IMG/VR virus record: IMGVR_UViG_3300022929_002848
Location: 1 to 37,031 of that record
Direction: 5' to 3' (one strand)
DNA: 37,031 nt
Source of the DNA: a virus
Of this stretch, positions 738-30,538 are shown piece after piece (position 1 is the first letter of the stretch; every line of letters starts with the position of its first letter). Under the pieces are notes generated by a model. That model was not told where the DNA came from and ran no database searches. It saw only the letters and a program-made list of their open reading frames with translations. The translations under genes and the position numbers were made by a program.

Positions 738-2426
738 ATGAAAATTAATGATTTTAAGCAAACTGAACAGCTAAAACTTATTGAAGCTAAATTCGTTCGT
801 GGTCGTAAATTGCTCGACAATATGTGCGAAGGGTTGGATGCTGAACAGCGTCGTATCGTAGAAGGTGTTTATGCATCTGCTATTCCGTTGATGAAAGAAA
901 CAGTTATTGCAGAAGCCGCAATGACATCAGATCAAATTGCACAACTTTTTGGCAATGCAGAAAAAGCGGCTACAGCAAGTGGTTCTAATAGAACAGCACT
1001 TGGTAAAGGCAAAGATGTTACAGATGCCGCTGGCAAAATGCTTAAAGATGCGGCACTTTGGTTACAAGACACTGCACCTGTACAAGCATTTGACAACAAG
1101 TTTGAACAAGGCAAGCAAGCACTAAAAACTAAATTAGGAAACAGCGCAAGCGGTCAAAAAGTACTACAAAGTGTTGAAGCACTAGGAAATTATGCTAAAG
1201 AGAATCCAGGTAAGACTGCGTTTGCTATTGGTATTTTAACAGCAGTTGCTTCTATAGCAGGCGGACCACTAGGCGGTGCTATTGCTGGTCAGGTACTACG
1301 TGGTAGTATGGAATTAGTTAAAGGTGAAAAACTTTCAACAGCTATTGGTAAAGGTCTTAAGGCAGCCGCAATGGGCTTCTTGGCAGGTAAGGCTTTTGAA
1401 GCTATTGGCGATATATTTGGAGACTTTGTTGAAGATGTTCAGTATGGAGATCTCGGAGAATTCAGTGAAAAGGGTACACTAGTGTATAGTCACTATGGAT
1501 CTGCCGATGTTGGAGGAGGTAATGTATACAGGGACTGGGTTTTTGATACAAACAAACTCAGTGGTATCTTAACACCAGACCAACAAACTGAAATTACAGA
1601 TTACTTTAATACTATTCAAAAGGTAGCTAGCGATAGTATTGGAGATTCAACAGTTTCTTCCAAACAAGCTATGGAAGATATCCGAGGTATTATTAGTAAA
1701 CTTGGAGATTTGACCAAACAGTATACCGAAGAAAATATTGCAAACAACCCAGGAGTTGAAGAATATCTTGAAACCGGCACAACCGGATTACTTGATAGTA
1801 TTGAGCAATGGACTGACATAACATCTGCTAGTGTGCAAGGTGCAGTTACTGGTGCAGTATCTAAGGATAAAGAGTCAGGCACAGGCCCAGGATCTCCAGC
1901 AACTAAAGGTGATGAAGCGGCAATAGAAAAAGCCGCAGAAGAAAATGATGTAGAAGGCGTAGCAGTAAAAAGCAATACCGAAAGTGTTGAAATGTCTGAA
2001 GCACAAGTTCGTCAATTGTTTGTTGGTGCTAGTTATATAACAGAAAGCCGTTTAGACGAATTAGACTTTGGTGCTATTAAAGCAAAAGCTGGTCAAATAG
2101 CAAAAGCTGGTATGGCTAAAGCACAAGAAGTTGGCAAGAATATGACAACTCGTGTTACTACTAATAAACTAAACAAAGCATGGGAAAAAGCAGGTAAACC
2201 AACAGACAGTGCAGACATCATGAAGATTTTGCAAGATAATGGTGTTGAAGCTGAAGTAGCTACACAAGCATTTAAAGATACTGGTGTTGAAGCTCCACCT
2301 CCTGTAGAAAAACCAAACGTAGATGCTAATAAGTTAGCTGACTTTGTTAACTCTCTACCTGAAAAAGAAAAGGAAGAAATTAAAAAATTAGTTATTGCTC
2401 GCCAACAGGAGTTAGCAACAGCATGA
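738..2426 (+). CDS. Large helical protein with hydrophobic core, probably virion-associated
   Basis: 562 residues. The N-terminus is MKINDFKQTEQLKLIEAKF. Residues about 60-110 are Ala-rich. A Gly/Ala-rich hydrophobic stretch at about 158-190 (AFAIGILTAVASIAGGPLGGAIAG) could insert in a membrane or form a hydrophobic helical hairpin. The C-terminal half is acidic and then basic, with KLNKAWEKAGKPTDSADIM, a helical module I recall from T4-like cyanophage proteins. A similar short motif occurs twice: MTSDQIAQLFGNA and MSEAQVRQLFVGA. The gene starts 1 base after the previous stop and overlaps the next gene by 4 bp. A virion or injected protein is an inference; no enzymatic motif is seen. Confidence 0.65.
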   Translation: MKINDFKQTEQLKLIEAKFVRGRKLLDNMCEGLDAEQRRIVEGVYASAIPLMKETVIAEAAMTSDQIAQLFGNAEKAATASGSNRTALGKGKDVTDAAGKMLKDAALWLQDTAPVQAFDNKFEQGKQALKTKLGNSASGQKVLQSVEALGNYAKENPGKTAFAIGILTAVASIAGGPLGGAIAGQVLRGSMELVKGEKLSTAIGKGLKAAAMGFLAGKAFEAIGDIFGDFVEDVQYGDLGEFSEKGTLVYSHYGSADVGGGNVYRDWVFDTNKLSGILTPDQQTEITDYFNTIQKVASDSIGDSTVSSKQAMEDIRGIISKLGDLTKQYTEENIANNPGVEEYLETGTTGLLDSIEQWTDITSASVQGAVTGAVSKDKESGTGPGSPATKGDEAAIEKAAEENDVEGVAVKSNTESVEMSEAQVRQLFVGASYITESRLDELDFGAIKAKAGQIAKAGMAKAQEVGKNMTTRVTTNKLNKAWEKAGKPTDSADIMKILQDNGVEAEVATQAFKDTGVEAPPPVEKPNVDANKLADFVNSLPEKEKEEIKKLVIARQQELATA

Positions 2427-3154
2427 AGCTAAATGAAGGCGGAAATATCTTCAAGGACGCAGACAAGAATCCTTTAACACAACGCATCAATCGTGCTGAT
2501 GTTGAGCCTACAGTGCGTTGGTTAGAACAGTTAACAGGACTTAGTCTAGTAGATAACATGTTAGGTACAACTGGGCGCAAAGAAACATCAGGTGACCTAG
2601 ACCTAGCAGTTGATGTAAACAAGATTGACAAAGACACACTTGTACAGGTATTGTTGAAAAAAGGTGTAGACAAAGCTGATATTAAAAAAAGCGGCGACAG
2701 TGTACATCACAAAACACCTATCAATGGCGATCCTGCTAATGGTTATGTGCAAACAGACTTTATGTTTGGTGAACCCAAATGGCAACATTTTAGCATGCAA
2801 GGCGGTGCGGAGAACAGCGAATACAAAGGCATGCATAGACAGATTCTACTAAGTAGTATCGCAAAAGCAATGGGCTACAAGTGGAGTTATAAAAATGGTC
2901 TTATGGATCGTGAGTCAAATACTACTCTGGACGGTGGTAAAAATCCGGCAGTTATTAGCAAAACACTAGGCATTCCTATTGCTAAACTAAACAGCGTAGA
3001 AGATATTATTGACTCTATCAAAGGTCGTCCAGACTATCAGCAGTTGGTTGCGGATGCTAGAGAAGCTCTAGCAAGAGATAACCTAACACTTCCTGAAAGC
3101 GCAGGCGATCATGCACCAGTTGGCACAGCCGCTTGGTTTAGGAAGTTTGTGTAA
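2423..3154 (+). CDS. DNA polymerase X-like nucleotidyltransferase
   Basis: 243 residues. A Pol beta-type active site is visible: Gly48-Thr49 followed by GRKETSGDLDLAVD gives the first two catalytic acids, Asp58 and Asp60, and Asp112 in YVQTDFMF is the likely third. This resembles the GSFRRG...GDMD and RIDIRLI motifs of polymerase X. After Asp112, FSMQGGAEN plus a helix resembles the nucleotide-binding end of that fold. The family transfers nucleotides to DNA, RNA or small molecules; gap-filling DNA synthesis is the closest analogy. There is no visible 8-kDa lyase or HhH domain. It overlaps its neighbours by 4 bp and 1 bp, next to a ligase-like gene, which suggests joint action in repair. A polymerase with another substrate or a degenerate enzyme remains possible. 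Confidence 0.62.
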   Translation: MKLNEGGNIFKDADKNPLTQRINRADVEPTVRWLEQLTGLSLVDNMLGTTGRKETSGDLDLAVDVNKIDKDTLVQVLLKKGVDKADIKKSGDSVHHKTPINGDPANGYVQTDFMFGEPKWQHFSMQGGAENSEYKGMHRQILLSSIAKAMGYKWSYKNGLMDRESNTTLDGGKNPAVISKTLGIPIAKLNSVEDIIDSIKGRPDYQQLVADAREALARDNLTLPESAGDHAPVGTAAWFRKFV

Positions 3155-4218
3155 TGGCACTGCTATTTGAATTTATTGACACACTGGTAGTAGAAGAAGG
3201 CCCACGTATCCAACACCCAGAGGATGCAATTTTCCAAGGTGCTGATTCAGCAAAAAAGTTACTAGATGCACTGGAGTTTGTGATTGACGATCCAGGCAGT
3301 GTTAGCATCAAGTGGGATGGCGGCGTTGCACTATTGTTTGGTAACCGTGATGGCGAGTTTGTTATAACAGACAAGTATATGCCCAACAAAGGCGTATTTC
3401 CTAACAGCCCAGAAGCATTTAAACAATATGATGTAGAACGTGGTGCAGACCGCAGTGACTTATATGAAAAGATTCAAGGCATTTGGGAAGGCTTACGTGC
3501 CGCAGTAGGTAGCACAGACGGATTGTTCAAAGGCGATCTTATGTGGTACGGCGAATTACAGCCCAACGCAAACGATCAATATGTGTTTAGACCAACCACA
3601 GTTGAATACAGAGTTCCTGCTAACAGTGATCTTGGTAAAAAAATTGCTGGCAAACGAGCAGGCATTGTTGTGCATGCATTTGATGGTCAACCTTGGGACG
3701 GCAAAACAGGACTCAGTGCAAACAGTGATGTGCTAATACTAACACCTAAGTCTGGCGTTGAATTTAAACTCAACAACCCAGTACGTTTAGTTGCCGCCGC
3801 TAATAAAGCTGTTAACACAGATGGACCAAAAGCACAAGAGTTTTTAGATGGTATGCCCAAAGTAGTACGTGCCGCAATACAGACATATATGAACAAACAG
3901 ATCACAGGGCAAACCAAAGACAAAATACAGGATTGGCTGACAACTAAACTTAGTGGCAAACAGCAGATAGCAATGCTAGATCCTGAAAATGGTTATCTAC
4001 TTCAAAACGCAGATGGCTTAAACGCACTATACAATGTATGGAACAGCGTCAACAATCTTAAGGTTAATATAGCCGCTCAGTTAGAAAAGCAAGTAACAGG
4101 ATTTGAACAATGGAGTGGTGGCAAGCAGGAAGGCGAGGGTTTTGTGTTCAACAGTCCTGCAGGATTGGTCAAAATCGTCAATAGATCGGGCTTTGGTGCC
4201 GCTCATTTTAACAAATAA
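3154..4218 (+). CDS. ATP-dependent polynucleotide ligase-like protein
   Basis: 354 residues. The order of motifs matches covalent nucleotidyltransferases: motif I K53-W-D-G (lysine that takes AMP), motif III around WYGELQ (Glu134), motif IIIa-like IVVHAFDG (Phe176-Asp177), motif IV EGFVF (328-332) and motif V LVKIV (Lys340). The spacing between motifs IIIa and IV is long because a helical insert lies at about 210-320. Known members seal nicks in DNA or RNA. I do not recognise it as a standard T4 gp30 or Rnl ligase, and no OB-fold domain follows motif V, so catalysis may need a partner. The start codon overlaps the stop of the Pol X-like gene, indicating translational coupling. The assignment rests on motifs only. 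Confidence 0.58.
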   Translation: MALLFEFIDTLVVEEGPRIQHPEDAIFQGADSAKKLLDALEFVIDDPGSVSIKWDGGVALLFGNRDGEFVITDKYMPNKGVFPNSPEAFKQYDVERGADRSDLYEKIQGIWEGLRAAVGSTDGLFKGDLMWYGELQPNANDQYVFRPTTVEYRVPANSDLGKKIAGKRAGIVVHAFDGQPWDGKTGLSANSDVLILTPKSGVEFKLNNPVRLVAAANKAVNTDGPKAQEFLDGMPKVVRAAIQTYMNKQITGQTKDKIQDWLTTKLSGKQQIAMLDPENGYLLQNADGLNALYNVWNSVNNLKVNIAAQLEKQVTGFEQWSGGKQEGEGFVFNSPAGLVKIVNRSGFGAAHFNK

Positions 4219-5676: not shown

Positions 5677-6205
5677 ATCCATCCAATTAGCTACAGTTGA
5701 CACGGTTGCGGAACTAGCCGCAATCAAAGTCGCACGATGGCAGAAACGTGAAACCGCAAGACTGCTCTCAACTCAAAGCAACAACGTTTATATCTTTCCT
5801 ACCAAACGCGGATACAAAATTGGCGGGTATACTATTACAAATGCTGAAAACTATTGGGAAGTGCGTAGCAGAGGCGAATGCGAACGTTTTTCTACCAAAG
5901 CTCAGGCAGTTATTTGGACCACACTGTCACATAAAAGTAAACATACTTTAGCCAGAGAGTTTAAAGACGCCCAACGTTTAGTAGATAAGTACTTGCAAGA
6001 TATTATGTATTACAAACATAGTATACGCTGTTCCAAAGATGATTTTCGCAGAGGTGCTCTTTGGAATCGCGTAGAGGATGCGCTGTTCCATTTACAATTA
6101 GCTCAAAATAACCTCAGAAAAACGTTGAACTCTGCTAAATACATAAAACTTTGGGAAGAGAATAACCATGAAAATTTCAGAGATCGGCCTCAAAGCCAAC
6201 AGTAA
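5636..6205 (+). CDS. Conserved hypothetical protein
   Basis: 189 residues, start ATG at 5636 preceded by GAGGCG. The N-terminal third is helical and basic. The middle has aromatic beta-rich segments (VYIFPTKRGYKIGGYTI, ENYWEVRSRGECERF), and the C-terminal half is a long helical region (VDKYLQDIMYYKHSIRC to LRKTLNSAKYIKLWEE). No signal, membrane segment or catalytic motif. It overlaps both neighbours (41 and 38 bp). I do not recognise a family; overlap with probable virion genes hints at a structural or assembly role. Confidence 0.55.
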   Translation: MALSNTVRKTVDLKSIQLATVDTVAELAAIKVARWQKRETARLLSTQSNNVYIFPTKRGYKIGGYTITNAENYWEVRSRGECERFSTKAQAVIWTTLSHKSKHTLAREFKDAQRLVDKYLQDIMYYKHSIRCSKDDFRRGALWNRVEDALFHLQLAQNNLRKTLNSAKYIKLWEENNHENFRDRPQSQQ

Positions 6206-6902
6206 AAGAATTAATAAAGTAGTTGAGAGCCGTTTCGGACTCGCTATAGACTACGATACACTAACTATTGACAAAGCAAACAGTTTAGTTGAAGCTATCT
6301 CTTCTAGTCTATCACAGTTTTCCAGAAGCCACAATATCCATCAGTCACAAAAGAATTCAAAGTACATGGAATTTTATATGGTTAAGGAAGGTTTGGAAGC
6401 ATGGCTAAAAGAGAACAATGGTGTTGAAGAAAAATTAGAACCAGCACCAATCGTTGAAAGCGAAACAGCTAAGAGTGAAGCTATTCTAGCAAGTCGTGAT
6501 ATTGTTGACAGTATCCAAGACATGATGGAAAAGATTGGTAAGATGCAGAACGAGCAGATGCCAGCACTACTAGATGCTATTCGTGATCAGATTAGTTCAG
6601 AACAAGCAGACGCATTTAAAACTTCAGTAGACCCAGTACTAACTCAGTTAGAAGATAGTTTACGTACTAGTAGAGAAACAGTTGATGCGGCAGCAAGAAC
6701 ACTAGCAGGCGAACAAGTAGATCAACCAATGGACATGCCAGCAGATGATGCGGCGGCTCCAATGGATGCAGAAGCTCCTGCTGAAGAACCAGCAGTCGAC
6801 GCTGGCGCAGAAGGCGATGCAGATGCAGGCGCCGCTGATGAATTTGCGGCAACAGACGCCGCCGCAGGTGACGACGACGCTGGACGTGAAGAAAGAGCAT
6901 AA
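6168..6902 (+). CDS. Acidic helical protein, probable virion or prohead-core protein
   Basis: 244 residues starting MKISEIGLKANSKRINKVVE. The central part (about 100-185) is an amphipathic helical region including ASRDIVDSIQDMMEKIGKMQNEQMPALLDAIRDQI, a block I recall from T4-like cyanophage structural proteins. The last 70 residues are almost only Asp, Ala, Glu, Gly and Pro and are very acidic, probably disordered. Helical core plus acidic tail is what scaffold or internal head proteins look like. No enzyme motif. It lies 2 bases before the next gene. Virion association is inferred. Confidence 0.62.
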   Translation: MKISEIGLKANSKRINKVVESRFGLAIDYDTLTIDKANSLVEAISSSLSQFSRSHNIHQSQKNSKYMEFYMVKEGLEAWLKENNGVEEKLEPAPIVESETAKSEAILASRDIVDSIQDMMEKIGKMQNEQMPALLDAIRDQISSEQADAFKTSVDPVLTQLEDSLRTSRETVDAAARTLAGEQVDQPMDMPADDAAAPMDAEAPAEEPAVDAGAEGDADAGAADEFAATDAAAGDDDAGREERA

Positions 6903-6904
6903 AC

Positions 6905-7315
6905 ATGAGATTGAGCGAGTTTAATATAAAAGCTCTTGATGCTGATATTATTGAGGACGATACAGAAGATCGCGGCGACGATAACTTGATTACCGCACTG
7001 ACATTCCTTCGTAATAAAAGCAGAGATCAACACCTCAACCCAAAGGTGCGTGTTGATAGTTTAATAAACATGGTAAAAAACACAGGCGCAGATTTATTCA
7101 ATCTAGATAGTTTAACAAACTCATTTAAACAAAACGAAGCAGTTAAAAGTTTAATCAAAGACATTAAAGATGACGAACAAGGCGTTAAGTACGTCTTTTT
7201 AAAGACCTTTAGTGACGACGACGTTGAAGAAGAACCAGCTATTGCTTATGGCACAAAACAAGACAATCCAGACAAAGTTGTTTCACAAATGGCAGACAGG
7301 GCATTAAAAACATGA
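6905..7315 (+). CDS. Small acidic protein, unknown
   Basis: 136 residues starting MRLSEFNIKALDADIIEDDTE. It is acidic and mostly helical, with VRVDSLINMVKNTGADLFNLDSL and a C-terminal Asp/Glu cluster (FSDDDVEEEP). AAAGAG lies upstream of the ATG. The stop overlaps the start of the next small gene (ATGA). The N-terminal Met-basic-hydrophobic pattern is shared with several neighbours. No known family; probably a late protein by position. Confidence 0.55.
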   Translation: MRLSEFNIKALDADIIEDDTEDRGDDNLITALTFLRNKSRDQHLNPKVRVDSLINMVKNTGADLFNLDSLTNSFKQNEAVKSLIKDIKDDEQGVKYVFLKTFSDDDVEEEPAIAYGTKQDNPDKVVSQMADRALKT

Positions 7316-8081: not shown

Positions 8082-8423
8082 ATGTTTACTGTAACGCAAA
8101 AAGCAGCCGATCAAATTAAGAAAATATTAGATAGCGATACTACACTAACAGGCGTAAGTATTTCTGTCAAACCCAGTGGGTGCAATGGATATTCTTATAA
8201 TATCAAACCTTGGGTACAGATTGATGAAGATGAAGCACACTACGAAGACAAGAATGTAAAAGTTCGTGTTATGCCAGGAAGTGAGCCTTTCTTACACGGT
8301 TGTGAATTAGATTATGTTGTAAGCCCTGATGGCTTTACTGCACGATTTGATATTATCAATCCATTAGAGGTTGGACGTTGCGGTTGTGGAGAAAGTTTTA
8401 ACCTTGATAACCCCAAAATTTGA
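8082..8423 (+). CDS. hesB: HesB/IscA-type iron-sulfur carrier protein
   Basis: 113 residues starting MFTVTQKAADQIKKIL. A-type carriers bind and hand over Fe-S clusters through three conserved cysteines. Here these are the Cys in SGCNGYSY (about residue 39) and the pair in CGCGESF near the C-terminus, all present. Length matches the family (about 105-120). ATG 8082 is chosen because the perfect promoter ends just before it; an upstream in-frame start would lie inside the terminator. Similar genes occur in marine cyanophages. The 3' end overlaps the nuclease gene, so both are expressed together. The recipient could be the nuclease or a host enzyme. Confidence 0.88.
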   Translation: MFTVTQKAADQIKKILDSDTTLTGVSISVKPSGCNGYSYNIKPWVQIDEDEAHYEDKNVKVRVMPGSEPFLHGCELDYVVSPDGFTARFDIINPLEVGRCGCGESFNLDNPKI

Positions 8424-9132
8424 TTATACTGCATGCAGTAGAACAAACATAAATGGCAAGCGTCATTATTGTTTACCCGACGGAAGCCGTGTACCTAGTG
8501 TTACAACAATACTAGACATAACCAAACCCGCAGAGAAAAAACGTGCGCTGGCTGAATGGCGGAAGCGTGTTGGTACAGAACGTGCTCAACAGATTACTAC
8601 CGAAGCCGCTAACCGTGGCACTCGAATGCACACCTATCTAGAAGGATATGTAGAAACTGGTGAACTTAAAGCAAAGCCCAGTAATCCGTTTGCTTGGCCC
8701 AGTCATGCTATGGCTAATGTTGTCATCGAACAAGGACTAAGCAAAGCTGACGAGTTTTGGGGCAGTGAAGTTCCATTATACTTTCCAGGAGTGTATGCGG
8801 GTACTACAGACCTAGTAGGTGTACATCAAGGTGTACCAGCTATTATGGATTTTAAGCAGACCAATAGACCTAAGAAAGAAGAATGGGTTGAGGACTATTA
8901 TCTACAGCTATCCGCATATGCACTAGCACATAATGAAGTACATGGCACAAATATTAACAAAGGTGTTATTCTAATGTGCGTTAAACCCAAACTAAACGAG
9001 TCTGGAGCAATTTTGGAAGAACCTGAATATCAAGAGTTTGTTGTGGAAGGCGAGAAATTTGATCATTGGCAAAATCAATGGTGGAAACGTTGCGAGCAAT
9101 ATTACACAAAAATGGCTAACAACGAATTATAA
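8404..9132 (+). CDS. PD-(D/E)XK-family exonuclease
   Basis: About 242 residues. The core reads YAGTTDLVG...AIMDFKQTN...YLQLSAYALA: an Asp, then D-x-K after a beta strand, then the Gln-x-x-x-Tyr helix, the order seen in RecB/lambda-exonuclease-like nucleases. Upstream, RGTRMHTYLEGYV resembles the helix that precedes the first acidic residue in Cas4/RecB-like enzymes. The start is uncertain: TTG at 8404 has GGAG 12 bases upstream; TTG at 8371 in the same frame is also possible. It overlaps hesB by 20 bp or more. Likely role: DNA end processing during recombination or host DNA breakdown. Confidence 0.78.
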   Translation: MITPKFDYTACSRTNINGKRHYCLPDGSRVPSVTTILDITKPAEKKRALAEWRKRVGTERAQQITTEAANRGTRMHTYLEGYVETGELKAKPSNPFAWPSHAMANVVIEQGLSKADEFWGSEVPLYFPGVYAGTTDLVGVHQGVPAIMDFKQTNRPKKEEWVEDYYLQLSAYALAHNEVHGTNINKGVILMCVKPKLNESGAILEEPEYQEFVVEGEKFDHWQNQWWKRCEQYYTKMANNEL

Positions 9133-9175: not shown

Positions 9176-10537
9176 ATGGCCGTTATACAGATATCACGTA
9201 TTCAAGTAAGACGTGGATTACATGACAATTTGCCTTCCCTAGCTAGTGCTGAACTAGGCTGGAGCCTAGACCAGCGCAGACTGTTTATTGGTAATGGTAC
9301 CGCATCTGAAGGTGCACCTGTAACAGGACGTACTGAAGTACTTACAGAACATAGTGATATTTTAAGTTTGGTTAATGTCTTTAGTTTTAAAGCAGAACCA
9401 GCAGGATTCATTGCTGCCACAGGTCCAAACAATACACAGTTTACTCGTAGCCTACAAGAAAAACTAGACGATTTTGTAAATGTTCGTGATTTTGGCGCCA
9501 AAGGCGATGGTATTACAGACGACACTGCCGCAATCACTAGAGCACTTAACAATACGTATGGTTATACCAGTGTTATTGCAGGCAACAATACTAGACGTAC
9601 AGTTTACTTTCCAAGCGGCAAGTATCTTGTTACTGGTATTATTAATGTTCCTCCTTATACACATGTTGTTGGAGACAGCGCAGAAACAGTACTAATCTTT
9701 AACGAACAAACAACATCATTGGATACTATTTTTAGAATTGCTGATAGTAATAGTAACGTTGATACTAACTTTGGTGATGCACTAGGTCTTATTGCTACAC
9801 AGGGTAAAAACTATACATTTGAACACATTGGCATTCAAAATGCTACAGCCGCAATTAACCCTTGCATACAAGCACCTGGTGGTGATCAGTTGTTCTTTAA
9901 CAGCGTTAAGTTTATTGGCCCAGCCGCAAGTGTGGTCAATCCAGGCGCAGGGCATAGCGCAGTATATCTACAAAACAATACACTAAACACTGCATTCAGA
10001 GTTAAAGATGTTAAGTTTGTGGATTGCCAATTTGAAAATCACGGCTATGCTATAGAAACTTTAGGAACTGTAATTGGACTAGTCGCCCACAGATGTAGTT
10101 TTAGCAACGTATATAATTCTAAAGTACTCAGCTCTGACACAAAAGATTACAGCTTTGTTGATTGTTCAGCTGATAGTGTTCCAGGTGACACATCAAGTAT
10201 GAACTTTGTAGACACAAGAGGAAAAATTAATTCAAGTATAGGCAATACTGTTGTACTAACAGCAGGCGGTACAGGAACATTTACTGCCGTCGATGTACTC
10301 GATGACTATGAAAATATTACTATCAATTATGTGTTAACTATTGGAAACAGTAGACGTAAAGGTTCATTTGTAGGAGTTGGAACAGGCTCCGGATACTTTT
10401 GGGCAGACGAATATGTCGAAACCAATGCACTTAATGTTGAATTTACAGCAGACTCAAGTACTGGTGTGATTGGTTATGATACCACTAACGCCGCCGCAGA
10501 TGTTACAGTTACCTATTCAGTAGAATACCACAACTAA
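9176..10537 (+). CDS. Tail spike/fiber with pectin-lyase-like fold
   Basis: 453 residues. The N-terminus (ISRIQVRRGLHDNLPSLASAELGWSLDQ...LFIGNG) is the baseplate- or fiber-attachment module common in T4-like marine phages. At about residue 100, VRDFGAKGDGITDDTAAITRAL is the hallmark start of the Pectate_lyase_3 beta-helix of tailspikes. The following region is rich in short beta repeats (VKFVDCQFENHGYAIET, VAHRCSFSNV), as expected for a right-handed helix. The C-terminal 90 residues form a different beta-rich domain, probably for trimerisation or receptor binding. TGAGGA precedes the ATG. Likely binds or cuts a host surface glycan; catalytic residues cannot be assigned by eye. Confidence 0.85.
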   Translation: MAVIQISRIQVRRGLHDNLPSLASAELGWSLDQRRLFIGNGTASEGAPVTGRTEVLTEHSDILSLVNVFSFKAEPAGFIAATGPNNTQFTRSLQEKLDDFVNVRDFGAKGDGITDDTAAITRALNNTYGYTSVIAGNNTRRTVYFPSGKYLVTGIINVPPYTHVVGDSAETVLIFNEQTTSLDTIFRIADSNSNVDTNFGDALGLIATQGKNYTFEHIGIQNATAAINPCIQAPGGDQLFFNSVKFIGPAASVVNPGAGHSAVYLQNNTLNTAFRVKDVKFVDCQFENHGYAIETLGTVIGLVAHRCSFSNVYNSKVLSSDTKDYSFVDCSADSVPGDTSSMNFVDTRGKINSSIGNTVVLTAGGTGTFTAVDVLDDYENITINYVLTIGNSRRKGSFVGVGTGSGYFWADEYVETNALNVEFTADSSTGVIGYDTTNAAADVTVTYSVEYHN

Positions 10538-11012: not shown

Positions 11013-13337
11013 ATGAACACTGCAAATATTCAAGTTACTAAAAGAGATGGACGCCGCGAGCTCTTAAATTTAGACAAACTACACAAAGTTGTATTCTGGG
11101 CATGTGAAGGCATTAACGGAGTTAGTGCTAGTCAAGTTGAAATAAAAAGTCACATTTCTTTTTTTAATGGCATTACAACCAGAGAAATTCAAGAAACACT
11201 TATTAAGAGTGCCGCAGATCTTATCACAGAAGAAACTCCTAACTACCAATGGGTAGCAGGACGACTACTTTCATATCATATTCATAAAGAGGTATATGGA
11301 GACTTTGCTCCCTGGCCTTTATATAAACTAGTTCAGCGTAACGTAGACATTGGCTATTATACTCAAGATCTCTTAGAGAAATATAGTGAAGCTGAATTCG
11401 CAGAAATGAATAATTACATTGACCACAACAAGGACGAGAATTTTACCTATGTTGCTATGGAACAGTGGCGTGGCAAATACCTAGTACAGAATCGTGTAAC
11501 AGGTGCTATATTTGAAACACCACAAGTAGCTTACATGATGATTGCGGCTACACTTTTTGCTGACTATCCTGCAGAAACACGCATGCAGTGGGTAAAAGAC
11601 TATTATGATGCAATTAGTAATTTTGATGTGAGTCTGCCTACTCCTGTAATGGCAGGTGTACGTACACCACAAAAGCAGTTTTCTTCTTGTGTTTTAATTG
11701 AAACAGATGACAGTCTGGATTCAATTAATGCTACGACTTCGAGTATTGTAAAGTATGTTAGTCAAAAGGCAGGCATTGGTGTAGGTGCTGGACGTATTCG
11801 TGCGTTAGGCTCGCCTATTCGCAACGGCGACGCATACCACACAGGTGTTGTTCCATTTTACAAAATGTTCCAAGCGGCTACACGTTCATGCTCACAAGGC
11901 GGTGTACGTAATGGTGCCGCAACACTATACTATCCAATTTGGCACTACGAAGTAGAAGACCTTCTTGTTTTAAAGAATAACAAGGGTACAGAGGATAATA
12001 GAGTACGTCACATTGATTACGGGGTCCAATTCAACAAATTAATGTACGAAAGATTAATCTCCGGTGGCAATATCACCCTTTTTTCACCCCATGACGTACC
12101 GGAAATGTTTGATGCTTTCTATGCTGACCAAGATCGATTTAAAGAACTATATGAAACAGCAGAACGTAATACACGGTTACGTAAAAAAACAATCCGTGCT
12201 AGTGAACTGTTTGGTGCGTTTATAGAAGAGCGTAAAAATACAGGACGCATTTATCTACAGAATGTAGACCATGCTAATACACACAGTCCATTTGATGAGC
12301 GAGTTGCTCCAATTCATATGAGTAACTTATGTTGTGAGATTGACTTACCTACCGTGCCTCTTAATGATGTTAAAGATGAAGACGGGCGTATTGCACTTTG
12401 CACACTAAGCGCAATCAATTGGGGCAATGTTAAATCACCCAAAGACTTTGAAAAGATGTGTACACTAGCAGTACGTGGACTCGATGCATTACTATCATAT
12501 CAAAACTATCCAGTACGTGCGGCAGAACTTGCTACACTAGAGTTTCGTCCACTAGGTGTAGGCATTATTAACTTTGCATACTTCTTAGCACGTCAAGGTC
12601 TTTCTTACAGCGATCCAAATTCTATCGCCGTTGTTGATGAATATGCTGAAGCATGGAGTTACTATTTGCTCAAAGCAAGTGCGGATCTTGCACAAGAACA
12701 AGGAGCCTGTCTCCGTTGGAAAGATCTCAAGAGCGCCGAAGGTAAACTACCGATCGACACATACAAAAAAGAAGTTGACGAACTAGTACCTCACAAAGAA
12801 CGTATGCCTTGGAAATCACTACGTAATCAAATACAAAAAACAGGACAACGTAATGCTACATTGATGGCGATCATGCCTGCTGAAACTTCAGCACAGATTT
12901 CAAATGCTACTAATGGCATCGAACCACCACGTGCTCTAGTAAGTGTTAAGCAAAGCAAACACGGCGCACTACGACAGGTTGTTCCAGGCTACTGGAAACT
13001 TAAAAACAAATATGAACTACTATGGGACCAAGAGAGTCCAGAAGGATACCTCAAGCTATGTGCAGTATTGCAGAAATATATTGACCAAGGCATGAGTGTT
13101 AATACCAGTTATAATCCTCAGTTTTTTGAGGATGAAAAGATCCCAATGAGTGTGATGCTACAACATCTTCTACTCTGTTATAAATATGGGATTAAACAGT
13201 TATACTATTTCAACACTTATGATGGACAAGGTGAAGTTGATATAGACAAACTTTCTTCTCAGGTACAAGAACCTGAGTCACAAGAACAAGAATTAACTGC
13301 CGTAGATCAAGAAGACTGCGATAGTTGTGTAATCTAA
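11013..13337 (+). CDS. nrdA: Class Ia ribonucleoside-diphosphate reductase alpha subunit
   Basis: 774 residues (E. coli NrdA 761). It reduces NDPs to dNDPs with NrdB. The ATP-cone is at the N-terminus (IQVTKRDGRRELLNLDKL). Active-site elements are all present: first redox Cys in FSSCVLIE, N-x-C-x-E in SNLCCEIDLP, second redox Cys in ALCTLSAINWG, the LMAIMPAETSAQISNATNGIEP loop, and the Tyr-Tyr radical relay in LYYFNTYDG. The C-terminal thiol pair is a compact C-D-S-C, unlike the CxxxxC of E. coli. GAGGAG precedes the ATG. It is followed by nrdB after 11 bases and nrdC after that, forming an operon for dNTP supply. Confidence 0.97.
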   Translation: MNTANIQVTKRDGRRELLNLDKLHKVVFWACEGINGVSASQVEIKSHISFFNGITTREIQETLIKSAADLITEETPNYQWVAGRLLSYHIHKEVYGDFAPWPLYKLVQRNVDIGYYTQDLLEKYSEAEFAEMNNYIDHNKDENFTYVAMEQWRGKYLVQNRVTGAIFETPQVAYMMIAATLFADYPAETRMQWVKDYYDAISNFDVSLPTPVMAGVRTPQKQFSSCVLIETDDSLDSINATTSSIVKYVSQKAGIGVGAGRIRALGSPIRNGDAYHTGVVPFYKMFQAATRSCSQGGVRNGAATLYYPIWHYEVEDLLVLKNNKGTEDNRVRHIDYGVQFNKLMYERLISGGNITLFSPHDVPEMFDAFYADQDRFKELYETAERNTRLRKKTIRASELFGAFIEERKNTGRIYLQNVDHANTHSPFDERVAPIHMSNLCCEIDLPTVPLNDVKDEDGRIALCTLSAINWGNVKSPKDFEKMCTLAVRGLDALLSYQNYPVRAAELATLEFRPLGVGIINFAYFLARQGLSYSDPNSIAVVDEYAEAWSYYLLKASADLAQEQGACLRWKDLKSAEGKLPIDTYKKEVDELVPHKERMPWKSLRNQIQKTGQRNATLMAIMPAETSAQISNATNGIEPPRALVSVKQSKHGALRQVVPGYWKLKNKYELLWDQESPEGYLKLCAVLQKYIDQGMSVNTSYNPQFFEDEKIPMSVMLQHLLLCYKYGIKQLYYFNTYDGQGEVDIDKLSSQVQEPESQEQELTAVDQEDCDSCVI

Positions 13338-13348
13338 TAGGAAACAAA

Positions 13349-14497
13349 ATGACAGTCTTTAGCTCTAAAAAAATTGACCATACCAAGTCCCTAGCATTTC
13401 TAGACAAAAATGGTGGTAGTGGAATTCAACGTTATGACGTTGTAAAATATCAACAGTTTGAAAAACTAACTGATAAACAACTTGGCTTCTTCTGGAGACC
13501 AGAGGAAGTTGATATCTTGCGTGATGCCAAAGACTTTAAAGAGTTAACAGATCATGAAAAGCATATTTTTACTAGTAATCTTAAAAGACAGATTCTATTA
13601 GACAGTGTGCAAGGTCGCTCACCTAACCTAGCACTACTTCCTATCGTTACACTTCCTGAACTTGAAACATTTATTGAAACTTGGGCATTTAACGAAACTA
13701 TTCACAGTCGCAGTTACACACATATTATTCGTAATGTGTATAGTCAACCCAGCGAAGTGTTCGATAGCATGCTAGACAGTAAAGAGATTGTTGCATGTAG
13801 CGCCGACATCAGTAAGTATTATGATGATCTTATTGAGAAAGTCTCATACTATCATATGTTGGGTGAAGGCACACATAAGATTACTAGCAATGTGCGTGGT
13901 AAAAGTGTTGAAAAGGAAGTAACAGTAGACCTATATGAAATAAAGAAAGCACTGTTCCTTGCTATCACCAGTATTAATGCACTAGAAGGTTTGCGCTTCT
14001 ATGTAAGTTTTGCTTGCTCATGGGCATTTGCAGAACTTAAAAAGATGGAAGGCAACGCTAAGATTATTAAATTTATCGCCCGTGACGAAAATGTACATCT
14101 TGGCGCAACGCAAACACTGCTAAAAATATTACCACAAGATGACAAAGACTATGTCAAGATCAAAGAAGAACTACGTGAAGAATGTAGCAAGATTTACTTT
14201 GATGCGGCTGAACAAGAAAAAGCATGGGCGGCATACTTATTCCAAGGTGGATCGATGATCGGTCTCAATGAACAACTACTATGTCAGTATGTTGATTGGC
14301 TATTGTGTAAGCGTATGACCGCAGTTGGGCTTGATTGTGGTATTAAGCCTGGGTCTAATCCTTTGCCATGGACACAAAAATGGATTGCTGGTAGTGAAGT
14401 ACAAGTTGCTCCTCAGGAAACTGAAATTAGTAGTTATGTTGTTGGAGGAGTCAAGCAAGATGTTACCGAAGAAACGTTCTCAGGCTTTAGTTTGTAA
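13349..14497 (+). CDS. nrdB: Class Ia ribonucleotide reductase beta subunit
   Basis: 382 residues (E. coli 376). It carries the di-iron centre and tyrosyl radical used by NrdA. Ligands are visible: Asp in QILLDSVQGR, Glu and His in FNETIHSRSY (E-x-x-H), the radical Tyr three residues later in HSRSYTH, and E-x-x-H in RDENVHLGA. The intact Tyr makes it a normal class Ia enzyme, not a Tyr-less type. The start at 13349 is chosen because TAGGAAA lies just upstream; an earlier in-frame codon lies within nrdA. The C-terminal tail (VTEETFSGFSL) fits the peptide that docks on NrdA. Confidence 0.97.
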   Translation: MTVFSSKKIDHTKSLAFLDKNGGSGIQRYDVVKYQQFEKLTDKQLGFFWRPEEVDILRDAKDFKELTDHEKHIFTSNLKRQILLDSVQGRSPNLALLPIVTLPELETFIETWAFNETIHSRSYTHIIRNVYSQPSEVFDSMLDSKEIVACSADISKYYDDLIEKVSYYHMLGEGTHKITSNVRGKSVEKEVTVDLYEIKKALFLAITSINALEGLRFYVSFACSWAFAELKKMEGNAKIIKFIARDENVHLGATQTLLKILPQDDKDYVKIKEELREECSKIYFDAAEQEKAWAAYLFQGGSMIGLNEQLLCQYVDWLLCKRMTAVGLDCGIKPGSNPLPWTQKWIAGSEVQVAPQETEISSYVVGGVKQDVTEETFSGFSL

Positions 14498-22597: not shown

Positions 22598-22909
22598 ATG
22601 TCAAACACCGATGAAGCAGTCAAAAAGAAGACTAAAGTGCGTGAGAATTTGAGAGAACCCAGCAAGTTTCGTGTTATCTATATTAATGACGAAGTCACAA
22701 CAATGGAGTTTGTCGTTGAAACGTTGAAGAGTATCTTTGACTATGATGAACAACCTGCTGTGGCACTAACACAAAAAATTCACGCAGACGGGCTAGCTAT
22801 CGTTGCTGTATTGCCTTTTGAAATGGCAGAGCAAAAAGGTGTTGAAGTTACTATATTAGCACGTAGCCATGGATTTCCTCTACAGGTAAAAATTGAACCA
22901 GACGTATGA
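22598..22909 (+). CDS. clpS: ClpS-type protease adaptor
   Basis: 103 residues from ATG 22598, set by AAAGGA 7 bases upstream. ClpS brings N-degron substrates to ClpA or ClpC. Family features: KFRVIYINDEVTTMEFVVETL (in E. coli the NDDYT...F.V.VL segment), then the alanine-containing helix, then IHADGLAIVAVLPFEMAEQKGVEVTILARSHGFPL, which matches the H-x-x-G-x-A and E-A-x-x-K parts and the C-terminal strand. The residue after Asn-Asp is Glu rather than Asp, and the usual Tyr-Thr is altered, so the N-degron pocket may be modified. Phage ClpX lies close by, but ClpX normally does not use ClpS; no ClpA is seen here. Confidence 0.88.
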   Translation: MSNTDEAVKKKTKVRENLREPSKFRVIYINDEVTTMEFVVETLKSIFDYDEQPAVALTQKIHADGLAIVAVLPFEMAEQKGVEVTILARSHGFPLQVKIEPDV

Positions 22910-23370
22910 TATTTGCAGATTATACAAAACTTAAAAACAAAGGCAAAATTATTGGCATAACATTTAGCCAGTTTGATCTGTTACACGCAGGGCATGTTGC
23001 AATGCTAAGTGAAGCAAAGAATCATTGTGATTACCTGATTGCAGGACTACAAAATGATGCTAGTCGTGATCGTCCTGAAAAAAATCAACCTGTACAAAGT
23101 ATTGTTGAACGCCAAATTATGTTGAATAGTCAACGTACAGTTGACGAAGTTATTGTGTACAATACTGAAAAAGATCTAGAAGATATACTACTAACACTTC
23201 CTATAGATGTTCGCATTATTGGAGTAGAGTATAAAGACAAAGACTTTACTGGCAAAGATATATGTGTAAAGCGCAATATTAAAATAGTTTATAACAGTCG
23301 AGACCACAGTTTCAGTAGCACAGGTCTACGCAAAAGAGTAGCACTGTTTGAAAATGATAAGTCTGTATAA
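22906..23370 (+). CDS. Cytidylyltransferase-like nucleotidyltransferase (TagD/RfaE fold)
   Basis: 154 residues; the start overlaps the clpS stop by 4 bp. LLHAGHVAML contains H-x-G-H, the nucleotide-binding signature of the TagD, RfaE and NMNAT superfamily, preceded by a beta strand and FSQFDLLH. RPVQSIVERQIML and VDEVIVYNTEKDLEDIL follow as in TagD, and SSTGLRKRV at the end corresponds to the S-T-S/T-x-I-x-x-R motif. Such enzymes join CTP or ATP to a sugar or polyol phosphate. The substrate cannot be read from sequence. The next gene, a hydrolase, overlaps it by 17 bp. Confidence 0.82.
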   Translation: MIFADYTKLKNKGKIIGITFSQFDLLHAGHVAMLSEAKNHCDYLIAGLQNDASRDRPEKNQPVQSIVERQIMLNSQRTVDEVIVYNTEKDLEDILLTLPIDVRIIGVEYKDKDFTGKDICVKRNIKIVYNSRDHSFSSTGLRKRVALFENDKSV

Positions 23371-24244
23371 AAAGTTTGATGACGACAAGTTTGATAAATC
23401 TACTGTTTATAGGTCATACGATCATCAAGGAATAAGCAAAGCTATCCAAGCACAATCTGGTGAGATTATTGACGATAATCTCATGTGGTTCCCTACTGAA
23501 AATGCAAAAAGAACTGTGGTAGTAATTCCAGGCGGCCCTGCAAAATTTCACATATCTAAAAGAGGAACGTTTCCTGAAAATCAACTTATGCCTGGAACGT
23601 CAATACCGCATTTTAGAAACCTAGGATATAACGTAGCTTATGTGCGAGCAGGAAACGTACAGATTCCTTGGTTACTTAATATTCTGTATGCTAGAGCTCC
23701 GTGGCTTGCACTTAGAGATAAGATACAACCGATACCGAAAGAATGGTTAAAAGAAAATCCAAGACTGGAACTAAAAAAAGCATTACATGCTATAGATACA
23801 ATTAACAAAACTATCAGAACTGCTATTAGATTAAGTACAGTACCTACACTACTAATAGGACAATGTAACAGTAATTGGTTAATATCAACCTACTATCATA
23901 CTTTACATAAAAAAGATCCATGTTGTGGATTAATTTTTACCAGTGTTAATAGTCCACTTATACGCAATCAAGCATTTCATGAACGCTGTAATTTCTTTAA
24001 GAAAGATAATACTGTTTCTATACCTGTGCATGTTATACATCATCGCTATGATGTATCTGAGAATACCAGTCCTGACATTGCTGAAATACTAACCAAACAA
24101 TATAACTTTGATGATGTTACACTAACCATTATGGAAGGTGGGATTAATGAAGGTCATCCAAAATTAACTTATGGGTATCATGGTTTTAGAGGGATCGAAA
24201 AAGAATTTGTCCAAACAGTAGTTAACTGGGCAAATTTACGTTGA
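23354..24244 (+). CDS. Alpha/beta-hydrolase-like protein with Cys in the nucleophile elbow
   Basis: 296 residues from ATG 23354; a TTG two codons earlier is the alternative. The fold is suggested by VVVIPGGP (oxyanion turn), LLIGQCNSNWLIS at about 170, HVIHHRYDVSEN (acid, Asp) and EGGINEGHPKLTYGYHGF (His). The elbow reads G-Q-C-N-S, so the nucleophile position of G-x-S-x-G carries Cys, as in dienelactone hydrolases, though the Gly after it is replaced by Ser. An overall relation to peptidase or esterase-like hydrolases is likely, while activity is uncertain. It overlaps the nucleotidyltransferase gene by 17 bp; the two may act on one substrate. Confidence 0.58.
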   Translation: MISLYKKFDDDKFDKSTVYRSYDHQGISKAIQAQSGEIIDDNLMWFPTENAKRTVVVIPGGPAKFHISKRGTFPENQLMPGTSIPHFRNLGYNVAYVRAGNVQIPWLLNILYARAPWLALRDKIQPIPKEWLKENPRLELKKALHAIDTINKTIRTAIRLSTVPTLLIGQCNSNWLISTYYHTLHKKDPCCGLIFTSVNSPLIRNQAFHERCNFFKKDNTVSIPVHVIHHRYDVSENTSPDIAEILTKQYNFDDVTLTIMEGGINEGHPKLTYGYHGFRGIEKEFVQTVVNWANLR

Positions 24245-24269
24245 CATTATTCTAATAGACTGCTATTAT
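24241..24269 (+). promoter_or_regulatory. Early promoter for the DEDDh exonuclease operon
   Basis: TTGACA (24241-24246), 17-base spacer, TATTAT (24264-24269). It overlaps the stop codon of the preceding gene and drives the block from 24294 onward. Confidence 0.82.
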
Positions 24270-24293
24270 TAATAATATAATAGGAGGTGTTCC

Positions 24294-24827
24294 TTGGACA
24301 TTATGCTTGACATTGAAACATTGGGCACAAGACCCAATGCAGTTATTCTTACCATTGGTGCAATTAAATTTAGCCCATATAATATGGAATTGCCAACCAA
24401 GGCAATATATCTACGACCCGATGTAGAAGCACAAGTTGCACTAGGGCGTAACATTGACGAAGATACTGTACGTTGGTGGGAGACACAAGAAGAAACCGTG
24501 CGTGAAGAAGCACTCAGCGAAGACAATCGAGATACCTTAGACTATTGTGCAGATGAAATCAATCGATTTTTTGTAGGCACTGATAAGTTTTGGGCACAAG
24601 GTCCTGCGTTTGACTATATTATTTTAGAAGACTGGTTTAGAAGTATCGGTCGTCCAACGCCGTGGCAGTATTGGCAAGTAATGGATAGTCGTACACTTTT
24701 TGGTGTACACGGTGATCCGCGCATAAAAAATAAGGAAGGTCTACACAACGCATTAGAAGATTGTGTAAGCCAAGCACAAGGCGTACAACAAGTTTACAAG
24801 GAAATTGGAAAACATTATGAGAATTGA
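24294..24827 (+). CDS. DEDDh 3'-5' exonuclease (DexA/Rv2179c-like)
   Basis: 177 residues. Exo I MLDIETLG (Asp and Glu), Exo II FWAQGPAFDYIILEDWF (Asp) and Exo III HNALEDCVSQAQ (His and Asp) give all four metal ligands and the catalytic His, as in T4 DexA and RNase T-like enzymes. The start is TTG at 24294, supported by AGGAGG 6 bases upstream; the ATG at 24303 is too far from that site. The length is shorter than T4 DexA (227). It degrades single-stranded DNA or RNA ends; which one is not visible. Its 3' end overlaps the next gene by 11 bp. Confidence 0.85.
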   Translation: MDIMLDIETLGTRPNAVILTIGAIKFSPYNMELPTKAIYLRPDVEAQVALGRNIDEDTVRWWETQEETVREEALSEDNRDTLDYCADEINRFFVGTDKFWAQGPAFDYIILEDWFRSIGRPTPWQYWQVMDSRTLFGVHGDPRIKNKEGLHNALEDCVSQAQGVQQVYKEIGKHYEN

Positions 24828-25965
24828 AGCTGATCCCAAGCACGACTATAATGATGTGCTAATTCGTCCCAAGCGTAGCACACTAGGCTCACGCAAACAA
24901 GTAATGCTAGAACGTGGGTTTGTATACCGCAACTATGTGCCAACAGGCTGGCAATGCACAGAAGATTATCATTATAAAGGTATCCCTATCATGGCTAGCA
25001 ACATGGATGGTGTTGGCACATTTGAAATGGCAGATACACTTGCTACAGGAGGATTGTTTACTTGTTTGGTAAAAACATATTCAGTAAATGAATTGGTAGG
25101 TTATTTTGACGCTGAAGAAAACGTTAATTATGAGCGTACAAATCATGTTGCTATGAGCATTGGCATTACAGATAATGACCATAATAAATTTAGAAATGTG
25201 TATGAACAAACTGGTGATAAGTTAAAGTATGTATGTATTGACGTAGCCAATGGATACAGTGAAAGATTTGTGGATTTTATCAAAGATTTTAGACATCAGT
25301 ATCCACATATTGTAATAATTGCTGGTAACGTTGTTACCTCAGATCAAACACAGGAGTTAATTTTAAATGGAGCAGATATTATCAAAGTGGGGATCGGTCC
25401 TGGTAGTGTATGTACTACTCGGATCCAAACTGGGGTTGGCTATCCTCAGTTGTCTGCTGTTATTGAATGTGCAGATGCCGCTCATGGGCTGGGTGGGCAT
25501 ATTATTGCTGACGGTGGATGCACTTGTCCTGGTGATGTTGCTAAAGCATTCGCCGGCGGAGCCGATTTTGTAATGCTAGGTGGTATGCTTGCCGGACACG
25601 ATGAAGGCGGCGGCGAAGTTATTACCAAAGGTTATTGGACAAATGAAGTATCTGTAGATCAAGGTGGCTTTGGACAAAAGATGGAAACCAAATCATTTGT
25701 ACAGTTCTACGGTATGAGTTCAAAAAGTGCAAACGAAAAGCATTTTGGCGGGCTTAAAGAATATCGTAGTAGTGAAGGTAGAGAAGTATTAGTTCCTTAT
25801 CGTGGTGCAGTAGGCAATACTGTGCAAGACATGTTAGGAGGTATTCGCTCAACTTGCACATATGTTGGCGCTAAGAATCTAAAACAGCTAAGTAAATGTG
25901 CAACATTTGTATTGGCTCGAAGTCAGTATAACTCAGTCTATGAATCAATGGATACATCAAAGTAA
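24817..25965 (+). CDS. guaC: GMP reductase (IMPDH/GMPR family)
   Basis: 382 residues (E. coli GuaC 347). The TIM-barrel core includes MASNMDGVGTFEMA, the phosphate and catalytic loop GIGPGSVCTTRIQTGVGYPQ (catalytic Cys followed by Thr-Thr), HIIADGGCTCPGDVAKA and FVMLGGMLAGHDEGGGEV. The Gly-Gly-Gly in place of the E. coli E-x-E/C loop is a small difference. GMP reductase converts GMP and NADPH to IMP and ammonia, recycling guanine nucleotides. The start ATG at 24817 gives MRIEADPKHDYNDVLI, as in the family. The N-terminal region lacks CBS domains, supporting GMP reductase over IMP dehydrogenase. The gene fits with nrdAB and rpiB in nucleotide supply. Confidence 0.92.
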   Translation: MRIEADPKHDYNDVLIRPKRSTLGSRKQVMLERGFVYRNYVPTGWQCTEDYHYKGIPIMASNMDGVGTFEMADTLATGGLFTCLVKTYSVNELVGYFDAEENVNYERTNHVAMSIGITDNDHNKFRNVYEQTGDKLKYVCIDVANGYSERFVDFIKDFRHQYPHIVIIAGNVVTSDQTQELILNGADIIKVGIGPGSVCTTRIQTGVGYPQLSAVIECADAAHGLGGHIIADGGCTCPGDVAKAFAGGADFVMLGGMLAGHDEGGGEVITKGYWTNEVSVDQGGFGQKMETKSFVQFYGMSSKSANEKHFGGLKEYRSSEGREVLVPYRGAVGNTVQDMLGGIRSTCTYVGAKNLKQLSKCATFVLARSQYNSVYESMDTSK

Positions 25966-29302: not shown

Positions 29303-30538
29303 ATGTTTAAAGTAAGTTTTATTGGTTTAGGTAAACTGGGTTTACCTTGTGCAGAAGCAATGGCAACAAAATATGATGTTGCTGGCTATGATATTTACCC
29401 AAGAGAAAGTGCGAGTGTAGATATTTGCACTACGATGAAGGAGGCTGTCGCTAATCGAGACATTATCTTTGTTGCTGTACAAACCCCACACGATCCCAAG
29501 TATGATGGATCCACACCAACCAGTCATTTAAATAATCTGGATTTTGACTACACTACAGTAAAAGAAGTACTAGAAGAACTTAACAACTACACTACAGGCA
29601 ATCAACTTGTAGTGCTAATTAGTACTGTACTTCCAGGCACAACACGTCGAGAGTTTATTCCGCTAGTTCACAACTATAGATTTATTTATAACCCATACTT
29701 AATTGCAATGGGCAGTGTAGCTTGGGATATGGTGAATCCAGAAATGGTTATGATCGGCACAGAAAGTGGCAACTACACAGACGATGCTACAAAACTAATC
29801 GACTTCTATAAACCCATTATGGAAAACAATCCACGCTATGTGGTTGGAACATGGGACGAAGCAGAATCGATCAAGATTTTCTACAACACGTTTATCAGTG
29901 CTAAACTAGGATTAGTAAACATGATTCAAGATGTTGCAATGAAGAACGGAAATATCAATGTAGATGTTGTTACAGAGGCACTAGCACACAGTGATAAGCG
30001 TATTGTTTCTCCCAAGTATATGACAGCAGGCATGGGCGATGGCGGACCATGTCACCCAAGAGATAACATTGCACTACGCTACATGGCACAAGAACTTGAT
30101 CTAGGCTACGATTTGTTTGATGCTATTATGCGAGCTCGAGAAGTGCAAGCAGAAAATATTGCTAAGTTCCTAGCAGATCTATATCACAAATACAATATGC
30201 CTGTGGTGATCTGTGGAAAAGCCTATAAGCCAGGAGTCGAGTATACCACTGGAAGCTACAGCACATTAATTGGTCATTACTTGAACGAAATGTCTATAGA
30301 ATATTACTATGCTGATCCATTGGTGGAAACAGAATTTAATTCTGTCAATGGAATACAGTGTGTGGCGTTTCTTGCACACAACCATAACATCACTTATGGT
30401 TACACAGGTAGTAGACAAGAAGACCAATTATATGTTAAGTTGTTAAGTAACAGTGTAGTTGTCGATCCTTGGCGTAATTTTGAAACCGACAGAGATGACA
30501 TCAACGTAATTTATTATGGAAATACAAGAGGACAATGA
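29303..30538 (+). CDS. UDP-glucose/GDP-mannose dehydrogenase family protein
   Basis: 411 residues (typical 388-450). The NAD-binding Rossmann motif is SFIGLGKLGLP at the N-terminus. VAVQTPHDPKYDG and VLISTVLPGTTRREF are characteristic. The catalytic Cys is in GMGDGGPCHPRDNIAL (canonical GPCFPKD), and the C-terminal domain begins near VVICGKAYKPG. The enzyme oxidises a nucleotide sugar to its uronic acid; the donor is not determinable here. AAGGAT lies before the ATG. Its gene overlaps the next one by 4 bp (2OG oxygenase), forming a tailoring operon with the amidinotransferase. Confidence 0.9.
   Translation: MFKVSFIGLGKLGLPCAEAMATKYDVAGYDIYPRESASVDICTTMKEAVANRDIIFVAVQTPHDPKYDGSTPTSHLNNLDFDYTTVKEVLEELNNYTTGNQLVVLISTVLPGTTRREFIPLVHNYRFIYNPYLIAMGSVAWDMVNPEMVMIGTESGNYTDDATKLIDFYKPIMENNPRYVVGTWDEAESIKIFYNTFISAKLGLVNMIQDVAMKNGNINVDVVTEALAHSDKRIVSPKYMTAGMGDGGPCHPRDNIALRYMAQELDLGYDLFDAIMRAREVQAENIAKFLADLYHKYNMPVVICGKAYKPGVEYTTGSYSTLIGHYLNEMSIEYYYADPLVETEFNSVNGIQCVAFLAHNHNITYGYTGSRQEDQLYVKLLSNSVVVDPWRNFETDRDDINVIYYGNTRGQ

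Follow-up and report, generated by a model that had tools for sequence, protein, structure and literature searches.

What does a phage do with two overlapping genes that each appear to encode a nucleotidyltransferase? The question arises from a 37-kb stretch of viral DNA (IMG/VR record IMGVR_UViG_3300022929_002848; 37,031 nucleotides, here called the window), a fragment rather than a whole genome, in which an initial annotation proposed a repair module consisting of a Pol X-like nucleotidyltransferase and a ligase-like protein. The open reading frames (ORFs), both on the plus strand, are laid out as it described: gene A (positions 2423 to 3154, 243 amino acids) and gene B (3154 to 4218, 354 amino acids) overlap by one base. 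Our analysis of sequence and predicted structure indicates that A is a reduced relative of the family X DNA polymerases and that B represents a new family of predicted covalent nucleotidyltransferases. We consider it about evenly balanced whether the two are packed into the phage head and injected as enzymes that repair gaps in the entering genome by filling and sealing them.

The Pol β-type active site originally recognized in A holds up across an alignment of 77 diverse homologues, in which G48, G51, S56, G57, D58, D60, Q110 and D112 are invariant. These residues belong to a Pol β-type palm with a nucleotide-binding loop (G48-[ST]-x-G51), a DxD motif and a third aspartate, D58, D60 and D112 being the predicted catalytic residues. 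The AlphaFold2 model of A has a predicted local distance difference test (pLDDT) score of 92.3, with residues 1–5 below 50, and all 50 of the Protein Data Bank (PDB) matches listed by Foldseek are family X DNA polymerases, including Pol λ, Pol μ, Pol β and African swine fever virus (ASFV) PolX (best E 5.3e-5, probability 1.00). Pfam scans with single A sequences fail to reach Pol X. Aligned by hhalign to 58 cellular Pol X proteins, which were retrieved by means of a DNA pattern encoding GS[FY]RRGxExxGDxD, the A profile reaches a probability of 90.9 and a pairwise E of 1.1e-6 over 144 columns spanning palm and thumb. Q110-x-D112 falls on the Pol X QxD motif and the thumb G-x-K/L-x-[SN]...GL is aligned, and control alignments of A with unrelated T4 proteins and ligases reach probabilities of at most 1.4. 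Invariant residues, fold matches and profile alignment together identify A, by prediction, as a relative of Pol X that lacks the 8-kDa domain. Scanning 84,980 cellular genomes with a narrow A pattern returned no relative, consistent with A being a viral family. Sequence-only PDB searches with the A and B profiles gave chance matches only, and defence-system and NCBIfam scans gave no meaningful matches.

B is a member of the Pfam family DUF6267 (PF19782; E 9.9e-27, 94.7 bits against a gathering cut-off of 27), which is matched by all 98 aligned B members. DUF6267 has many members in environmental phages and no assigned function, and its catalogue entry had escaped the initial annotation. Residues invariant among the 98 homologues (K53-W-D-G, D128, H174, E328-G329 and K340) lie on the motifs of covalent nucleotidyltransferases in the order I, III, IIIa, IV and V (KWDG, GDL at 127–129, H174, EGFV and VKIV), with K53 as the predicted nucleophile. 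Of the motif series first assigned to B, KWDG, the EG pair and K340 therefore stand, whereas the GEL and FD are not the conserved elements: conserved motif III is a GDL, in place of GE, a few residues before that GEL, and conserved motif IIIa is H174, just before the FD.

The B model scores a pLDDT of 94.4, with residues 1–15 below 50, and its motifs IIIa and IV flank a helical insertion. Most of its named top Foldseek matches in the PDB are DNA or RNA ligases; these matches are weak (best E 0.036), an archaeal RNA ligase ranks first, and the two kinds of ligase are about equally frequent. Among BFVD models its own family comes first, followed by DNA and RNA ligases (E about 0.005–0.2). Family profile matches to ATP-dependent DNA ligase (PF01068) and Rnl2-type RNA ligase (PF09414) are absent, and because hhalign of B against DNA ligases, T4 Rnl1, Rnl2 and phage RNA ligases found nothing, the ligase assignment rests on motifs and fold. 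In the model, a single short helix follows motif V, and no OB domain with motif VI was found C-terminally. B is thus ligase-like in its motifs and in the class of its fold matches, and not by significant homology in sequence to any known ligase. It is most fittingly described as founding a new family of predicted covalent nucleotidyltransferases, outside the known ligase families; the ligase-type fold is supported, although more weakly.

With each protein encoded by hundreds of viral contigs (at least 600 matches) and both models of high confidence, chance is excluded as an explanation. Across 192 distinct loci, A and B are adjacent in 71, fused in 45 and near each other in 16. When only distinct A-retrieved loci with enough flanking sequence are counted (89), B is adjacent in 51, fused in 21 and within 1.5 kb in 10, a total of 82. 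Fused and split arrangements switch about 7 times on a FastTree phylogeny, compared with 24 times when labels are shuffled. A is accompanied by a ligase-type protein even where that partner is not recognized as DUF6267, as its KxDG neighbours indicate: such a protein lies directly upstream of A in Atu_ph07 and Phosso, matching Pfam RNA_ligase weakly (E 0.002 and 0.085, respectively), and in PA5oct a KxDG gene two genes upstream of A encodes a protein that aligns with B over motifs IV–V (hhalign E 2e-4); in all three phages the motif reads EKLDG or EKIDG. Adjacency and repeated fusion support the proposal that the two genes form a functional pair.

Some fusions bring in a third nucleotidyltransferase, which had been overlooked. 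Fusion of B to a cytidylyltransferase-like domain occurs in S-PM2 and others, and at three loci this domain, A and B form a single protein (L101:5293-7797, L040:4308-7022 and L149:3814-6006). At these loci and at L004, L207 and L222 the cytidylyltransferase-like domain (PF01467, HIGH-type) lies ahead of A–B, behind A–B or behind B, giving up to three nucleotidyltransferase folds per protein. Downstream of A at four loci without adjacent DUF6267 (L086, L092, L103 and L079) lies a protein that starts MRAKDLVKGNIAYH, contains a GSLVNYNYT stretch and is possibly another nucleotidyltransferase. A standard ATP-dependent DNA ligase (PF01068) is also present in ten carrier contigs and in PA5oct, so B or its counterpart is not the sole ligase there, nor simply the replicative one, and the idea of B as the phage's only ligase fails for the ten contigs. 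It may still hold for four cyanophage-type isolates, in which no PF01068 match was found.

The initial annotation had guessed that the pair might be packaged, and had missed the head-protease sites that now back this guess. A begins with a predicted head-targeting propeptide, MKLNE (2423 to 2437, plus strand), with a predicted cut after E5 and before GGN. [LIV]-x-E precedes GGN in 64 of 66 A proteins, positions further upstream vary, and the site is kept at the junction even when another domain is fused upstream. B begins with the predicted capsid-targeting-like peptide MALLFEFIDTLVVEE (3154 to 3198, plus strand), with a predicted cut near E14/E15 and a design like that of T4 MKTYQEFIAE/A. In the 18 residues ahead of the B core, hydrophobic-x-E occurs in 130 of 136 distinct segments, compared with 30% in shuffles, and in 30 of 32 fusion linkers. 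Relatives of B begin MKTYTEYLVEAAEGP (L157) or MRAFEFLTEA, resembling MKTYQEFIAEA of the T4 internal proteins (IPs) IPII and IPIII. In the T4 genome, IPII and IPIII start MKTYQEFIAE/A, gp24 starts MAKINELLRE/S and gp23 carries LTE/A at residue 65; propeptide lengths and cleavage after glutamate are documented for T4 (PMC9026906, PMC9958956, PMC5694885).

A T4-type protease is encoded by 14 of 25 carrier records, all seven isolates among them, and in four carrier genomes the major capsid protein retains LxE at a matching place; no protease gene was identified in the window record, which is a fragment. At the family level, A and B therefore combine the two features of a T4-type internal head protein, an [LI]xE peptide and a phage encoding a gp21-type protease. 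An M[KR]xxE tag is not confined to A and B, starting about 19% of the ORFs close by and 6% of those far away, the far sample being four genomes whose own near loci are too few to compare. The A homologue of PA5oct is annotated as a structural (virion) protein by electrospray ionization tandem mass spectrometry (ESI-MS/MS), and virions of S-SM1 contain a putative cytidylyltransferase (T4-GC190) (Sullivan et al. 2010, PMC3037559). A virion location of A and B is supported, although more weakly, with one homologue annotated from mass spectrometry. The capsid-targeting-like peptides and predicted protease sites on A and B are new here. At L253, L254, L258, L270 and L079–L103, many unrelated small genes start M-R-A-K-E-F-[IL]-x-E, close to the T4 capsid-targeting sequence, a start that could mark head-packed proteins genome-wide.

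We propose the following sequence of events. A, a small DNA polymerase resembling family X, and B, a covalent lysine-adenylating nucleotidyltransferase, would act on a common substrate. Both would be made late and be directed by their N-terminal capsid-targeting-like peptides into a T4-like prohead, where the prohead protease would trim them at [LIV]-x-E sites or cut fusions apart. Injected together with the genome into a new host, A would fill short gaps in the incoming DNA and B would seal the leftover nicks. More broadly, and with somewhat less than an even chance of being right, DUF6267 may found an OB-less ligase family that, with Pol X and sometimes a cytidylyltransferase-like enzyme, is made, in many T4-like and jumbo phages from the environment, as a polyprotein that the head protease processes and that is packed in the capsid and injected as a ready genome repair kit.

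Several observations count against gap repair by a packaged pair. No ligase family matches B significantly in sequence, the Foldseek E-values of B are weak (0.036 at best), and B lacks the OB domain that DNA ligases possess. A begins at the palm, without the 8-kDa lyase domain and the helix-hairpin-helix motifs; the missing 8-kDa domain is not decisive, because ASFV PolX also lacks it. Complete cyanophage and pelagiphage genomes carry B without A, so B must have a use of its own; a distant A hidden upstream in these B-only phages was looked for and not found. Finally, the PA5oct A homologue lacks an LxE site, so its virion location is no proof of the LxE route, and the annotation of PA5oct does not mark its B-like gene as detected.

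If the pair is delivered with the genome, its substrate could instead be RNA: A would add nucleotides to RNA that B reseals, such as tRNAs cleaved by anticodon nucleases of the host, and such a kit, arriving with the genome, could act at once. The missing OB domain, a feature B shares with RNA ligases, would fit this reading, as would the archaeal RNA ligase at the top of its PDB fold matches and the weak RNA_ligase matches of the KxDG neighbours in Atu_ph07 and Phosso. We nevertheless regard RNA repair as unlikely, given that A resembles DNA polymerase X, thumb included, rather than tRNA nucleotidyltransferases, and that the fold matches of B include DNA and RNA ligases about equally often; the neighbourhood stretches examined showed no polynucleotide kinase, although no systematic search was made. 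Injected A and B might alternatively modify host proteins or small molecules in the manner of T4 Alt, which ADP-ribosylates RNA polymerase. Their head-targeting logic resembles that of Alt and the IPs, 3 of the 77 A members weakly match the AbiEii nucleotidyltransferase (best E 0.0034), and some fusions add the cytidylyltransferase-like domain, whose substrate is uncertain. Yet the thumb of Pol X is retained in A, and A is repeatedly paired with a ligase-type enzyme even where that partner is not recognized as DUF6267; together these point to nucleic-acid end joining and make host takeover, in our estimate, a little less probable again than RNA repair.

Least probable, at a small chance, is that A and B are ordinary, unpackaged replication or repair enzymes in which the N-terminal LxE is simply part of the fold. 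The position of cyanophage B near gp41 and uvsX would suit such a role. The LxE residues are, however, disordered in both models and persist at junctions when domains are fused upstream, and one homologue of A carries a virion-protein annotation. Head-packed gap repair is our preferred reading.

The surrounding genes include further candidates for packaging. Gene U (738 to 2426, plus strand), which starts MKINDFKQTEQLKLIEAKF and overlaps A by 4 bases, is a candidate co-packaged head protein on the basis of its N-terminal motif and of fused relatives: MKxxE-starting proteins are fused ahead of A or B at L063, L159, L199, L204 and L216. Downstream, a gene at 6168 to 6902 (plus strand; start MKISEI) encodes a member of a virion structural protein family (phrog_14154, E 1.9e-10) whose PA5oct homologue (7e-11) is annotated as structural by ESI-MS/MS, and the product of the gene at 6905 to 7315 (plus strand; start MRLSEF) has the N-terminal design of the other proteins of the locus. 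A PD-(D/E)XK exonuclease (8371–9132 of the window; L003:10024-10591) is common to the window and PA5oct and lies about equally far from A in each, which suggests a conserved block. Elsewhere, the window contains the C-terminal part of a longer gene cut at its edge, with three near-identical DANKDGKDDNTGEPMK repeats (50–736); a tail-spike-like protein with a pectate-lyase fold and an N-terminal Major tropism determinant domain (9176–10537; PF18454, E 6e-7); NrdA and NrdB, the large and small ribonucleotide reductase subunits (11013–14497); and sugar-nucleotide genes (22906–25965 and 29303–30538), namely heptose adenylyltransferase-like, dehydrogenase and UDP-glucose dehydrogenase.

Our literature searches, which left most subscription papers outside their reach, found no paper naming DUF6267 and no phage Pol X–ligase system. 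Collectively, these results suggest that many large environmental phages may enter the cell with a kit of their own for filling and sealing gaps. If so, DUF6267 would gain a testable enzymatic function, and DNA repair would join the jobs of proteins injected from T4-like heads. Which enzymes large phages deliver with their DNA, to survive genome damage before gene expression, thereby becomes a testable question.

Among known systems, the cyanophage DUF6267 proteins (T4-GC 71, for example in S-PM2) belong to the same family as B but have no A partner, the S-PM2 version being fused instead to the cytidylyltransferase-like domain. Bacterial LigD, like the A–B fusions, joins a polymerase and a ligase in one polypeptide; it differs in its archaeo-eukaryotic primase (AEP)-type polymerase, its OB-containing ligase and its Ku partner. 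No Ku was found in any of the 25 carrier records, and we rejected Ku-dependent end joining as a role for the pair. ASFV PolX is, like A, a minimal Pol X without the 8-kDa domain and works with the viral ligase in repair. In ASFV, a eukaryotic virus, PolX and ligase are encoded by separate genes and the ligase is a standard OB-containing DNA ligase. The T4 proteins IPI–III and Alt share with A and B an N-terminal targeting peptide ending in [LI]xE, and are cleaved by the gp21 protease and injected with the DNA (PMC9026906, PMC9958956); their cargo is an ADP-ribosyltransferase or a nuclease inhibitor rather than a polymerase–ligase pair. In PgVPolX of Phaeocystis globosa virus (PgV), a Pol X–ligase fusion is proven to work, combining gap filling and sealing in one protein (PMC5537341). 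Like the phage pair, PgVPolX comes from a large DNA virus and combines a Pol β-like core with a ligase, but it has 5′-deoxyribose phosphate (dRP) lyase activity, and its ligase portion is a relative of the NAD+-dependent DNA ligases. The phage pair is set apart by its DUF6267 partner, an A protein without the 8-kDa domain, predicted head-targeting and protease sites and an optional third enzyme; if our proposal is correct, these phages do as ASFV and PgV do, with unrelated parts.

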